NCBI GenBank assembly: GCA_029213195.1
Contig: JARGNI010000003.1
Location: 62,001-126,000, forward strand
Length of the DNA: 64,000 bases
Reading direction: 5' to 3'
Source of the DNA: Verrucomicrobiales bacterium
GTDB taxonomy: Bacteria; Verrucomicrobiota; Verrucomicrobiia; Verrucomicrobiales; DEV007
The first letter of the stretch is position 1. Each line of letters opens with the position of its first letter. The notes under the pieces are model-generated. The model did not search any database, was not told the origin of the DNA, and was given only the letters and a program-made list of their open reading frames with translations. The translations under genes and the position numbers were made by a program. Below are positions 49,316 to 54,902 of the stretch, piece by piece.

Positions 49316-49475
49316 GGGGAGGAGCCGTATCCTTACATGACGGAGGGGATCGGTTCCAATGGGAAAACCTCTGCCCCTCGTCTCGCTCGCGGAACCGGAT
49401 ACCGAACCATTACGCGCAAAGTCCTACCGCAATGACGCTGTTGGGGCAGCAACCCACTCCCGCCTACCTTTCTCC

Positions 49476-52370
49476 ATGATTTCTCGCAGGTTGTTTGCCC
49501 TCGGTCTCGCTGCCATCTATCTGCCTTCTCCGGCGGAAGAGACAGTCAGCTTTGCCCGGGACATTCGTCCCATCCTCAACGCCAAGTGCACGGGATGTCA
49601 TGGTGGCGTCAAACAGGCAGGAGGGGTCTCCTTCGTCTACGAGGATCAGGTCATCAATTTCGAAGGGGAAACAGGCAACCCTGTCGTCGTCCCTCGCGAT
49701 GCGGATGTCTCCGAACTCTTTTTCCGGATCGCCCTTCCGGCCGACGACCTCGATCGCATGCCTCCAGCCGACGAGCATCCGAAAGGCCTTTCGGAGAGCG
49801 AGATCGACCTCATCAAGCGGTGGATCGAACAGGGTGCGGAGTGGTCGGAACACTGGTCCTTCGAAACCCCACAGCGCCCCAAGATCCCGGAACTGGAATC
49901 GGCCGCGACACCGATCGACCAGTTCGTGCACGCTCGATTGCAGAAGGAAGGGCTCTCCCCGGCTTCGCCTGCGGAACCCGCGCGACTCCTGCGGAGGCTC
50001 TCTCTCGACCTGACCGGACTCCCGCCTTCTCTCGAGGAACTGGATCAATTCCTCGAAGATCACACCAAGGATCCCGAAAAAGCCATCGCGGCAAAAGTGG
50101 ACGAACTCCTCGCTCGCCCCGCCTTTGGAGAAAAATGGTCCTCGATGTGGCTCGACCTCGTTCGCTATGCCGACTCCCGCGGACTGGGGCAGGATGGAAA
50201 ACGAAACATCTGGCCCTACCGGGACTGGGTCGTCTCCGCCTTCAATGAGGACATGCCTTTCGACCAGTTTACGATCCGGCAACTCGCAGGAGACCTGCTC
50301 CCCGACCCAACCCTGAACGACCTCATCGCGACGGCAGCCCACCGCAATACCCAGACCAACAACGAGGGGGGGACCGATGACGAGGAATTCCGGATCGAAG
50401 CCGTGATCGATCGCGTCAATACCACCTGGCAGACCTGGGGCTCGATCACCTTCGGCTGCGTGCAGTGCCACGATCATCCCTACGAGGCCTTTCATCACGA
50501 CGACTACTACGAGTTCATGGCGTTCTTCAACAACACCGCCGACTCGGACCTGAACAACGACGAACCCCTCCTGCGTGTTCCAAACGACCCGCAGCAATTC
50601 GAAACTGCTGCCCGACTGGACAAGGAAATCCGCTCTCTCCAGGTCGAACTCTGGAAAAGAGGTCGCGAGGTCACGGGGGCAGTTCCCTGGAAACCCCTGC
50701 CTCTCGAAGGGGCCACCACGAGCAACAATACCAAGCTCGAGATCGAATCCCGGGGGGGACAGGATTTCTTCCGCACCGTCGGCACGGTCCAGCGTGGCCC
50801 CGTCTACGAGCTCACGAGCCCCCAGGCAAAGCGCGCGCAACCGATCACGGGATTGAAACTCACCGTGACCCCTGCAAACCCTGACAAAGCGCTCAAAGAC
50901 TCAGAATGGGGATTCGATATCAGCGACCTGACCGTTGAAATCGTGGGAGCCGACAAGAAGGCAACCGCGATCCCTTTTGCAGCCTCCGTCATCGATGTCC
51001 CCTACCTCCCTCACAGCCACGACACGACCGTTGGCGCATCGGGAAAAGGCTTCAGGGCCTGGACACGAATCCATCATGATCGGGAGCTCGTCATCATTCC
51101 AAAGAATTCGATCGAGCTCGGCGAGCAAACTCTCCGGATCCGCATCTCCAACAAGGCCTACATGCTGGGCGCGTTTCCGCTCGTCGTGAAACGCGGGACC
51201 TTCCACTACAGCACGGCTCCCGAACTCCTCGAGTTCGGATCCGACCCGGAGAGACTTGAGGGTGTGAGGCAACTCGCCAAGTTCCAGGCCGATCGCAAGG
51301 CGATTCCCTCGTCCACCCTCCCGGTCATGGCGGAGCGCCCCGCTTCGATCGCTCGCCCGACTCATGTCTTCGCCCGAGGCAACTTCCTGGAGAAGGACAA
51401 GCTCGTCACCGTGGGTCTTCCCGACAGTCTCCCCGAACTACCGAACAAGGACTCCGCCACCCGGCTCGATATGGCCAAGTGGTGGGTCTCGGGAGAGAAT
51501 CCGCTGACAGCACGGGTCTTCGTAAATCGTCTCTGGGAGCAACTCTTCGGCACGGGCCTGGTCGCGACCCTCGAGGACTTCGGCTCTTCGGGTGAAAAGC
51601 CGAGCCACCCCGCGCTTCTCGACTACCTCGCTCTCCGCTTCGAGGAAGACTACCAGTGGAGCATCAAGTCGACCCTTCGCGAGATCGTCCTTTCTTCGAC
51701 CTACCGGCAGTCATCAAAAGCATCGCCCGATGCGATCGAGCGCGACCCCGCCAATCGCCTTCTCGCCCGCGGGCCGAGGAATCGCCTTCCTGCGGAGGTG
51801 CTCCGGGACCAGGCGCTTGCGATCGCGGGACTCCTCACCGAAAAGGTCGGCGGCCCGCCCGTGCACCCTCCCATTCCTCAAGGCGTCTGGAAGCCCTTCC
51901 AGGGCGGCGACAAGTGGGCGACGCCCAAAGCTGGGCAGGAGAATCGTTACCGTCGGGCACTCTACACCTACACCAAGCGGAGCATTCCCTACCCCACCAT
52001 GGCGACCTTCGACGCCCCTTCCCGGGAATTCTGCAGCCCTCGCCGGCTCGTTTCGAACACGCCTCTCCAGGCGCTCACGATGCTCAACGATGAAGCCTTT
52101 GCCGAGGCAGCCCAGGGACTCGCCCGTCGCATAAAATACGATACCGAGGGCACGGTCGCGGAAAAGCTCGCCACCGGCTACCGCATCGCTACGGCACGGC
52201 CCCCGACGCAGGAGCGCCTTGATGAACTGGTCGGTCTCTACGACAAGCTGGAAGCGCAATACCAGTCCGAACCCAAGCTCATGGCGGGCATGGCCGGCAC
52301 CCCCGACGGAGCGGCCTTCACCATTGTGGCCCAGGTCATTCTCAACCTCGACGAAGTCCTCACCAAGTAA
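49476..52370 (+). CDS. PSCyt1 / DUF1549 / DUF1553 domain-containing protein
   Basis: Start reassigned to MISRRLFALGLAAIYL (ATG 49476); CTGCHGG heme motif; 'FGCVQCHDHPYEAFHHDDYYEFMAFFNNTADSDLNNDEPLL', 'NPLTARVFVNRLWEQLFGTGLVATLEDFGSSGEKPSHPALLDYLA'. Confidence 0.93.
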   Translation: MISRRLFALGLAAIYLPSPAEETVSFARDIRPILNAKCTGCHGGVKQAGGVSFVYEDQVINFEGETGNPVVVPRDADVSELFFRIALPADDLDRMPPADEHPKGLSESEIDLIKRWIEQGAEWSEHWSFETPQRPKIPELESAATPIDQFVHARLQKEGLSPASPAEPARLLRRLSLDLTGLPPSLEELDQFLEDHTKDPEKAIAAKVDELLARPAFGEKWSSMWLDLVRYADSRGLGQDGKRNIWPYRDWVVSAFNEDMPFDQFTIRQLAGDLLPDPTLNDLIATAAHRNTQTNNEGGTDDEEFRIEAVIDRVNTTWQTWGSITFGCVQCHDHPYEAFHHDDYYEFMAFFNNTADSDLNNDEPLLRVPNDPQQFETAARLDKEIRSLQVELWKRGREVTGAVPWKPLPLEGATTSNNTKLEIESRGGQDFFRTVGTVQRGPVYELTSPQAKRAQPITGLKLTVTPANPDKALKDSEWGFDISDLTVEIVGADKKATAIPFAASVIDVPYLPHSHDTTVGASGKGFRAWTRIHHDRELVIIPKNSIELGEQTLRIRISNKAYMLGAFPLVVKRGTFHYSTAPELLEFGSDPERLEGVRQLAKFQADRKAIPSSTLPVMAERPASIARPTHVFARGNFLEKDKLVTVGLPDSLPELPNKDSATRLDMAKWWVSGENPLTARVFVNRLWEQLFGTGLVATLEDFGSSGEKPSHPALLDYLALRFEEDYQWSIKSTLREIVLSSTYRQSSKASPDAIERDPANRLLARGPRNRLPAEVLRDQALAIAGLLTEKVGGPPVHPPIPQGVWKPFQGGDKWATPKAGQENRYRRALYTYTKRSIPYPTMATFDAPSREFCSPRRLVSNTPLQALTMLNDEAFAEAAQGLARRIKYDTEGTVAEKLATGYRIATARPPTQERLDELVGLYDKLEAQYQSEPKLMAGMAGTPDGAAFTIVAQVILNLDEVLTK

Positions 52371-52374
52371 ACTC

Positions 52375-53856
52375 ATGCAGCCTGACACTCTTCTCAACGA
52401 ACTCCGCAAGCGACAGCTCGAAGCGGATACTCGTCGGCAGTTCCTGAAGACCTGCACGACCGGCATGGGGAGCTTCTTCCTCGCCGATCATCTTGTCGGG
52501 GCCGCCGCCTCCACGCCGCAGCATTCAGACGGCGATCCGCTGGGCGCCCTGCAGCCTCATTTCAATCCCAAGGTGAAGCGGGTCATCTACCTCCACATGA
52601 TCGGTGCTCCCAGCCAGTTGGAGCTCTTCGATTACAAGCCGGAGCTGGAGAAGCTCGATGGCAAACCCTGTCCCCAGGAATTTCTCGAGGGCAAACGTTT
52701 CGCCTTCATCCAGGGGACCCCCAACATGATGGGGCCCCAGGCGAAATTCCGACAATACGGAGAGTCGGGCGCCTGGATCTCGGATCGACTTCCCCACCTC
52801 GCAAAGCACGCAGACGATCTCTGTTTCATCAAGACGATGAACACGGATCAGTTCAACCATGGTCCCGCCCAACTCATGGTCCACACCGGACACGCCCAGA
52901 TCGGGTATCCGTCGATCGGATCGTGGGTGACCTGGGGCATGGGATCGGAGAATGCCGACATGCCTGGGTTCATGGTGCTCTTGTCAGGGGGAAGACTCCC
53001 GCGAGTTGGCAAAGCACTCTGGAGTGCTGGTTTTCTCCCCTCCGTCTACCAGGGAATCCAGTGCCGTTCCGTCGGTGATCCCGTTCTCAATGTTTCCAAT
53101 CCTGCGGGAACCAATCGTGAGATCCGACGCACCGCGCTCGATGCCCTGAGCCGTCTCAACGAGAAGACCTACGACGAGTTTGGGGATCCCGAGACCCTGA
53201 CCCGGATTGCCCAGTATGAGATGGCCTATCGCATGCAGACCGCCGTACCCGAGGTGATGTCGATCGACGACGAGCCAGAGCGCATTCACGAGATGTATGG
53301 AACCCAACCAGGGAAAGAGAGCTTCGCCAACAACTGTCTCCTCGCCCGTCGTCTTGCCGAGCGCGGGGTCCGCTACATCCAGCTCTTCGACTGGGGGTGG
53401 GATTCCCACGGAGCCAGCAAGGGCGAGGCCCTCAACGGTGGCTTTCTCGACAAGTGCAAACAAGTCGACCGCCCCATCTCGGCTCTTCTCACGGACCTCA
53501 AGCAAAGAGGAATGCTTGAAGACACCCTCGTCGTCTGGAGTGGCGAATTTGGCCGCACCCCGATGCGGGAGAATCGCGGGGGCCAGGAGATGGCGTTGAA
53601 AGGTCGCGATCACAATCCAAGCGCCTTCACCCTCTGGATGGCCGGTGCCGGAGTCAAAGCCGGTACGACCTACGGGGAAACGGATCCCATCGGGTATGAC
53701 GCCGCAATCGACCCTGTGCGGGTCAACGATTTCCATGCGACCCTGCTCCACCTCCTCGGGTTCGACCACAAGCACCTCACTGTCCCCTTCCAGGGATTGC
53801 AGCAGAAGCTGACCGGGGTGAATCACGCATCGGTGGTGAAAGGAGTTTTGAGCTAG
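52375..53856 (+). CDS. DUF1501 domain-containing protein
   Basis: Tat-like 'DTRRQFLKTCTTGMGSFFLADHL', 'KVKRVIYLHMIGAPSQLELFDYKPEL', 'VVWSGEFGRTPMRENRGGQEMALKGRDHNPSAFTLWMAGAG'; start reassigned to ATG 52375. Confidence 0.93.
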   Translation: MQPDTLLNELRKRQLEADTRRQFLKTCTTGMGSFFLADHLVGAAASTPQHSDGDPLGALQPHFNPKVKRVIYLHMIGAPSQLELFDYKPELEKLDGKPCPQEFLEGKRFAFIQGTPNMMGPQAKFRQYGESGAWISDRLPHLAKHADDLCFIKTMNTDQFNHGPAQLMVHTGHAQIGYPSIGSWVTWGMGSENADMPGFMVLLSGGRLPRVGKALWSAGFLPSVYQGIQCRSVGDPVLNVSNPAGTNREIRRTALDALSRLNEKTYDEFGDPETLTRIAQYEMAYRMQTAVPEVMSIDDEPERIHEMYGTQPGKESFANNCLLARRLAERGVRYIQLFDWGWDSHGASKGEALNGGFLDKCKQVDRPISALLTDLKQRGMLEDTLVVWSGEFGRTPMRENRGGQEMALKGRDHNPSAFTLWMAGAGVKAGTTYGETDPIGYDAAIDPVRVNDFHATLLHLLGFDHKHLTVPFQGLQQKLTGVNHASVVKGVLS

Positions 53857-53865
53857 GACGGGTCA

Positions 53866-53899
53866 CAAAAAAAGCCCGACCGGAAACCGGACGGGCTTT
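53866..53899. terminator. intrinsic terminator between convergent DUF1501 and Ni-SOD-like genes
   Basis: AAAGCCCGaCCGG-AAA-CCGGaCGGGCTTT stem (53871-53899) with T-rich tail on the minus strand. Confidence 0.85.
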
Positions 53900-53925: not shown

Positions 53926-54396
53926 TCAGTGGCTGTGAAAGTCGGGCTCTTTGCCTTCGTAAGCACGGTAGAGATCGAAGATGGCCGTTTTGAGGGCCTC
54001 GGCCACTTCAGCGGAAGGATCCTGTTTTGCTTTCATCGCAGCACGCATCACATTGTGAGCGGCAATGAGAGCCTTCTCGTAGTTGTCGGCATCGGGCTTG
54101 ATCCGCTGGGCCATGAAATACTGGGCCACGGACTCCATCACTTTCTTGCAGTGATCTTCCTTCGTCATGATCCAGCGAGCGGCCTGGTTGGCATTCAGCG
54201 GGGTATTTTCCTGGATCAACTCCGCCATCTGCACGTTTGCCTTGGCAATCGTGGTTTGCGCTTCGAGAAGCTTCTCGAACTCGAGTTGGTCCGCGAAGAT
54301 TCCACAGGGAACCTGGCAGTGGGCCGATGCGTTTTGAACAGTGAATGCGGAAAGAACCGCAACAGCGAGGGTGGAAAAGAGCAGTTTGGTTTTCAT
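53926..54396 (-). CDS. sodN: nickel-type superoxide dismutase-like protein with Sec-type signal peptide
   Basis: MKTKLLFSTLAVAVLSAFTVQNASA|HCQVPCGIF...; the HCxxPCGx(Y/F) Ni-hook directly follows an AxA cleavage site; 'MTKEDHCKKVMESVAQYFMAQRIKP' resembles the helical core of Ni-SOD. Confidence 0.82.
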   Translation of the reverse strand: MKTKLLFSTLAVAVLSAFTVQNASAHCQVPCGIFADQLEFEKLLEAQTTIAKANVQMAELIQENTPLNANQAARWIMTKEDHCKKVMESVAQYFMAQRIKPDADNYEKALIAAHNVMRAAMKAKQDPSAEVAEALKTAIFDLYRAYEGKEPDFHSH

Positions 54397-54464: not shown

Positions 54465-54902
54465 CTACTCGTCTATATCGCTCAAGGCGACAGGACCCGT
54501 GACTCCTTCGAATTCTTTCCGCCAGGCAGCCGCTTGCTCGGCAGTCACGACATCATCGTGACCTCCCCACTGGTTCCTGACCCAGGTCATGACGGCAGCG
54601 AGACTGCGATCGTCGTAGATCTCCCCCATCCCGGCCATGGCTCCCGTGAAATCCTCGTCCTCTCTCAGCACCCCCTTGAGAATGATCAAAGCCAGCTCGC
54701 GCCCGTCTCCCTTGAGAATTTCGGAGTCTGCATACCCTGGCGCAACCCACTTGCCGTCACGCTCGATTCCCTTGCCATCCATCCCATGACACGCGGCACA
54801 GGACATGGCCTTCATCCGCCCCAAACGCATCGCCGTGGCTTTGGCCTGCTCGTCCGCGATAGCTTCCCAGGCAGGAGCGAGGACCAGGAGCGAAGTCACC
54901 AA
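54465..54902 (-). CDS. small c-type cytochrome
   Basis: Single CAACH heme motif (KAMSCAACHGMDGKGIERDGKWVAPGYADSEILKGDGRELALIILKG), distal Met in 'GAMAGMGEIYDDRSLAAVMTWVRNQWG'; TTG start in the track; N-terminus ambiguous (see findings). Confidence 0.8.
   Translation of the reverse strand: MVTSLLVLAPAWEAIADEQAKATAMRLGRMKAMSCAACHGMDGKGIERDGKWVAPGYADSEILKGDGRELALIILKGVLREDEDFTGAMAGMGEIYDDRSLAAVMTWVRNQWGGHDDVVTAEQAAAWRKEFEGVTGPVALSDIDE

Follow-up and report, generated by a model that had tools for sequence, protein, structure and literature searches.

Identification of a putative Ni-SOD gene with a predicted export signal

A gene on the reverse strand of the window, the whole 64,000-nucleotide stretch of DNA analysed here, raises the question of how a nickel superoxide dismutase (Ni-SOD) could bare the N-terminal histidine of its nickel-binding hook when SodX, the usual dedicated protease, is not encoded beside it. 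The features relevant to this question are as follows.

53926..54396, minus strand: putative exported Ni-SOD precursor gene, 156 aa plus stop; open reading frame with ATG start and Sod_Ni (PF09055) match
54322..54396, minus strand: predicted Sec-type signal peptide, 25 aa, MKTKLLFSTLAVAVLSAFTVQNASA; from hydropathy and the (-3,-1) register in relatives
53929..54321, minus strand: mature protein, 131 aa, predicted four-helix bundle; from the AF2 model and PDB fold matches
54295..54321, minus strand: Ni hook HCQVPCGIF (His1, Cys2, Cys6, Phe9); His1, Cys2, Pro5 and Cys6 in 151/151 exported rows
54295..54297, minus strand: codon of Phe9 (Tyr9 in Streptomyces Ni-SOD)
54151..54153, minus strand: codon of His57, in the same column as Streptomyces Arg47 by sequence alignment only
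54148..54150, minus strand: codon of the extra cysteine Cys58 (mature numbering), helix 2, in KEDHCKK
53874..53892, minus strand: terminator-like hairpin 3' of the Ni-SOD gene, weak alone (2 such matches in the stretch versus 1.5 expected in shuffles)

The precursor translates as MKTKLLFSTLAVAVLSAFTVQNASA directly followed by HCQVPCGIFADQ. It matched the Pfam family Sod_Ni (PF09055) with 93.1 bits (E 2.6e-26; curated cut-off 25), which excludes a chance match and bears out the family identity proposed in a preliminary description of this DNA. In contrast, the NCBI equivalog model for sodN, TIGR02753, scored 29.8 bits against a cut-off of 90, which counts against the Ni-SOD reading. His1, Cys2 and Cys6 of the HCxxPC motif are all present, with His1 predicted to form the free N-terminus. 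Three further details of the preliminary description were read from the translation and proved correct: ASA directly precedes HCQVPCGIF, Tyr9 is replaced by Phe, and an additional Cys occurs in KEDHCKK, which sits in helix 2.

Predicted fold of the mature protein

The preliminary description had also proposed structural modelling, and an AF2 model was calculated for the 131-aa mature protein as a monomer, using an alignment of 59 sequences from the window and the fetched loci. The model had a mean pLDDT of 92.7 and comprised helices at residues 11-35, 41-73, 81-100 and 104-122; the first ten residues, forming the hook, were poorly defined in this monomer (pLDDT about 56). Searches of PDB sequences returned no match with phmmer and the window sequence as single query, and only weak matches to Ni-SODs with a profile, so that a fold search was needed. 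Its top 11 matches in the PDB were all Ni-SOD chains (probability 0.99-1.0, none of them passing an E value of 0.001), and the Y9F mutant 3g4x was among the top matches with a TM-score of 0.81 by target length. The window protein is thus predicted to adopt the four-helix fold of Ni-SOD. A library of viral structures yielded no meaningful match to the model.

Relatives and variation around the active site

Sod_Ni genes occurred in 62 of 388 genomes sampled from the phylum and in 21 of 59 genomes of the family; 80 genes from these genomes were read with their flanks, two more being truncated by contig ends. From a contig scan came another 80 loci of Verrucomicrobiota, Planctomycetota and, in a few cases, Pseudomonadota, which partly overlap the first set, and a plasmid collection added one locus from Ilyobacter, a fusobacterium. 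After deduplication, the exported set comprised 151 rows (Verrucomicrobiota, Planctomycetota, few Pseudomonadota and one Fusobacteriota). As reference for mature Streptomyces SodN, the alignments and the tree contained a sequence that closely resembles that of 1q0d but differs from it at some positions.

The nearest relatives of the window gene belong to MAGs of Verrucomicrobiales and Akkermansiaceae. The exported-type gene of Ilyobacter polytropus (L214) resides on a megaplasmid. The exported Ni-SOD of a congener of the window organism (genome G406, locus L104) grouped with those of Ferrimonas and Methyloceanibacter, and that of the window near Rhodopirellula, a pattern for which horizontal transfer is possible.

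Tyr9 and Arg47 lie near the active site in Streptomyces Ni-SOD, and their replacement in the window protein by Phe9 and, by alignment column, His57 counts against the Ni-SOD reading. Position 9 is Tyr in 123 exported rows and Phe in 28. On a tree computed by a quick method with the position-9 column removed, which does not tell the direction of each change, Tyr9 and Phe9 interchanged at least 13 times, indicating that Y9F is a recurrent natural substitution. Such repeated natural changes from Tyr9 to Phe offer ready-made comparisons on the role of Tyr9, which has been summarized with respect to anion access (PMC8910529). Cys58 was found in 11 of 153 rows, all 11 of which also carry Phe9, with 2 changes on the tree; it is confined to the close group of the window gene, and Phe9 is common to several other lineages. 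In the oxidising periplasm, disulfides could form among Cys2, Cys6 and Cys58, a further point against the Ni-SOD reading. In the sequence alignment, where identity is low, His occupies the Arg47 column in 150 of the 151 exported rows, and Tyr68, in the column of Streptomyces Tyr62, is Tyr in all 151.

The variable position 9 and the His in the Arg47 column would also fit a protein of Ni-SOD fold that is exported to capture or store nickel and has little SOD activity, a role like that of the exported N-terminal-His proteins reported as Ni-binding, their oxidase/peroxidase activity being weak or absent (PMC12537917). We consider such a role unlikely: HCxxPC with both thiolate ligands and Tyr68 are invariant in the 151 rows, Lys75 and Lys99 are nearly invariant, and no metal-transport gene is a conserved neighbour.

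The hook follows the predicted signal peptide in register

An exported Ni-SOD matured by the housekeeping signal peptidase I, the reading we favour, draws on the position of the hook, which directly follows the signal peptide in 136 of the 151 exported rows. The exported layout, initially described as a peculiarity of the window gene, is therefore a property of the whole clade; the window gene is an ordinary representative, and what deserves attention is the clade more than the single copy. Applying a lenient (-3,-1) signal peptidase rule (any of A, V, S, G, T, I, L or C at -3; A, G or S at -1), we found it to hold exactly at His1 in 135 of the 136 direct-type rows; each alternative register satisfied it in no more than 33%. 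The maximum 8-residue hydropathy of the window leader was 2.58, and two cytosolic leaders reached 0.56 and 1.21. In Nonomuraea, the cytosolic leader likewise has ASA just before His1, so that the cytosolic and exported clades share a similar junction.

A different arrangement occurred in a Pirellulaceae subgroup, in all 15 rows of which a Pro-rich linker with Pro at -1 separates the hook from the signal peptide (L156, L167, L169, L170, L173, L174, L177, L178, L182, L184, L186, L187, L188, L190 and L192). Since Pro stands directly before His1, signal peptidase alone cannot free His1 there, and the subgroup would need a second protease. Hence, the proposal that signal peptidase I alone bares His1 gains support from the comparison for the direct type, with its recurring register and without SodX, and fails for the linker subgroup. 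Two-step maturation thus probably exists within the clade, and for the window protein, too, signal peptidase might cut at another site or a second periplasmic protease might complete the N-terminus. This is very unlikely, as His1 is the only register that nearly always obeys the rule in direct-type relatives.

Leader type is linked to the presence of sodX

A search of the window genome for sodX, as suggested in the preliminary description, yielded nothing over the curated cut-off of TIGR02754 in this MAG, which is 95% complete and may miss genes. The sole match was partial (25 bits) and located inside a 403-aa ORF reading as signal peptidase I. Likewise, none of the 388 genomes of the phylum, including the 62 with Sod_Ni, had a match over the cut-off. 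This cut-off is strict: SodX proteins adjoining sodN scored 36-61 bits in four Pseudomonadota and 44 bits in Novosphingobium. Some true SodX proteins thus score below it, and adjacency is the stronger test. With a SodX profile built from the SodX sequences of two cytosolic loci, whose recovery shows only that those loci hold SodX, no homologue was detected in the neighbourhood of any exported gene. This includes the window gene, in agreement with the earlier statement that no sodX-like gene is adjacent, and the locus has no dedicated SodX beside sodN as in a SodN-SodX system.

Among the cytosolic Ni-SODs with flanking sequence, sodX was found next door in 6 of 6. In the Pseudomonadota sample, a SodX match adjoined all four genes with a cytosolic leader and neither of the two with a Sec leader. 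A tree of 49 rows contained one branch, with a support of 100/100, that parts the exported from the cytosolic leader types. At the level of sequence, leader type is linked to presence or absence of sodX across the clade, and in the exported clade the role of SodX has most likely passed to signal peptidase I.

Proposed maturation and comparison with known systems

We consider it quite probable that the window gene encodes a periplasmic Ni-SOD that is exported by Sec and matured by the housekeeping signal peptidase I, for which the window genome holds a candidate gene. The precursor would pass through Sec, signal peptidase I would cut between ASA and H and thereby bare His1, and the HCQVPCG hook would then bind nickel in the periplasm, where the enzyme would remove superoxide. 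For the window protein itself, we infer these steps as well as its oligomeric state and catalysis. A wider proposition, for which we judge the chances to be even, is that Ni-SODs fall into two deep clades by the release of His1: a cytosolic one processed by SodX, and an exported one processed by the housekeeping signal peptidase I at a similar AxA-H junction, which would acquire its nickel outside the cytoplasm. In this view, SodX would be the equivalent of signal peptidase in the cytosol, and the linker subgroup of Pirellulaceae would represent a third route.

With Streptomyces Ni-SOD (SodN; PDB 1Q0D, 1T6U; Y9F 3G4X) the window protein shares the predicted four-helix fold, the HCxxPCG hook, Tyr in the Tyr62 column and PF09055. 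It differs in having a Sec signal peptide where the Streptomyces enzyme has a short cytosolic leader, in the lack of SodX, and in Q/E for Asp3, Phe9 and His in the Arg47 column, at about 14% identity. The Rhodopirellula baltica Ni-SOD (L143) belongs to the same clade and its signal peptide ends directly before the hook His, but it retains Tyr9 and lacks Cys58. Proteobacterial SodN (four Pseudomonadota and Novosphingobium RL4; hook HCDIPC) is likewise of the Sod_Ni family; however, its leader has no hydrophobic core and a SodX match follows immediately downstream. Signal peptide and His are similarly arranged in Roseiconus lacunae WP_230780104.1 (PMC12537917 Table 1), and this arrangement served as a search query in that study, so the layout was already known.

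A description of an exported Ni-SOD clade tied to sodX absence was not found in the literature searched; subscription papers were outside its scope and may hold an earlier one. On exported Ni-SODs as a class, PMC12537917 was the sole paper to come up, and the literature searched yielded no experimental work on the clade, which counts against the proposed reading. As far as searched, two points are new: the linkage of leader type to sodX throughout the clade, and the Pirellulaceae subgroup with the Pro-rich linker. Cyanobacterial NiSOD has been called cytoplasmic, and strains without sodX were treated as possibly unable to use NiSOD (PMC8346466). If the exported clade needs no SodX, a wider range of organisms would be credited with a working Ni-SOD, and the clade would illustrate how Ni-SOD could dispense with its usual dedicated protease.

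Genome context of the Ni-SOD gene

Previously, sodN has been listed in planctomycetes and verrucomicrobia, and sodC was reported absent from verrucomicrobia (PMC8346466). The window genome encodes one Fe/Mn SOD, the likely start of which shows no signal peptide, and no Cu/Zn SOD was found in it. Among the SOD families searched, Ni-SOD would be the sole exported SOD of this genome and, if the proposed reading is true, would give Verrucomicrobiota, for which that study reports no Cu/Zn SOD, a means of scavenging superoxide beyond the cytoplasm.

Nickel permeases of two families, NicO and HupE/UreJ, were not found in the window genome, which agrees with nickel loading outside the cytoplasm. This absence, the oxidising periplasm and the three cysteines might also suit a hook that carries another metal, e.g. 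Cu, or is oxidised, in a protein working unlike Ni-SOD, but we regard this as highly improbable, the ligand set being exactly that of Ni-SOD and kept in the clade without exception.

No conserved partner gene was found across the clade beyond synteny among close relatives. A gene for a small c-type cytochrome (54465-54902, minus strand) precedes the Ni-SOD gene by 68 bp in the same orientation. In the relatives compared, a counterpart at the same place occurred only in the close relative L108 (L134 is the same contig), leaving a functional pair of cytochrome c and Ni-SOD unsupported. A convergent PSCyt1/PSD1 and DUF1501 gene pair (49359-53856, plus strand) stops about 70 bp short of the Ni-SOD gene, and the terminator-like hairpin is located between the two.
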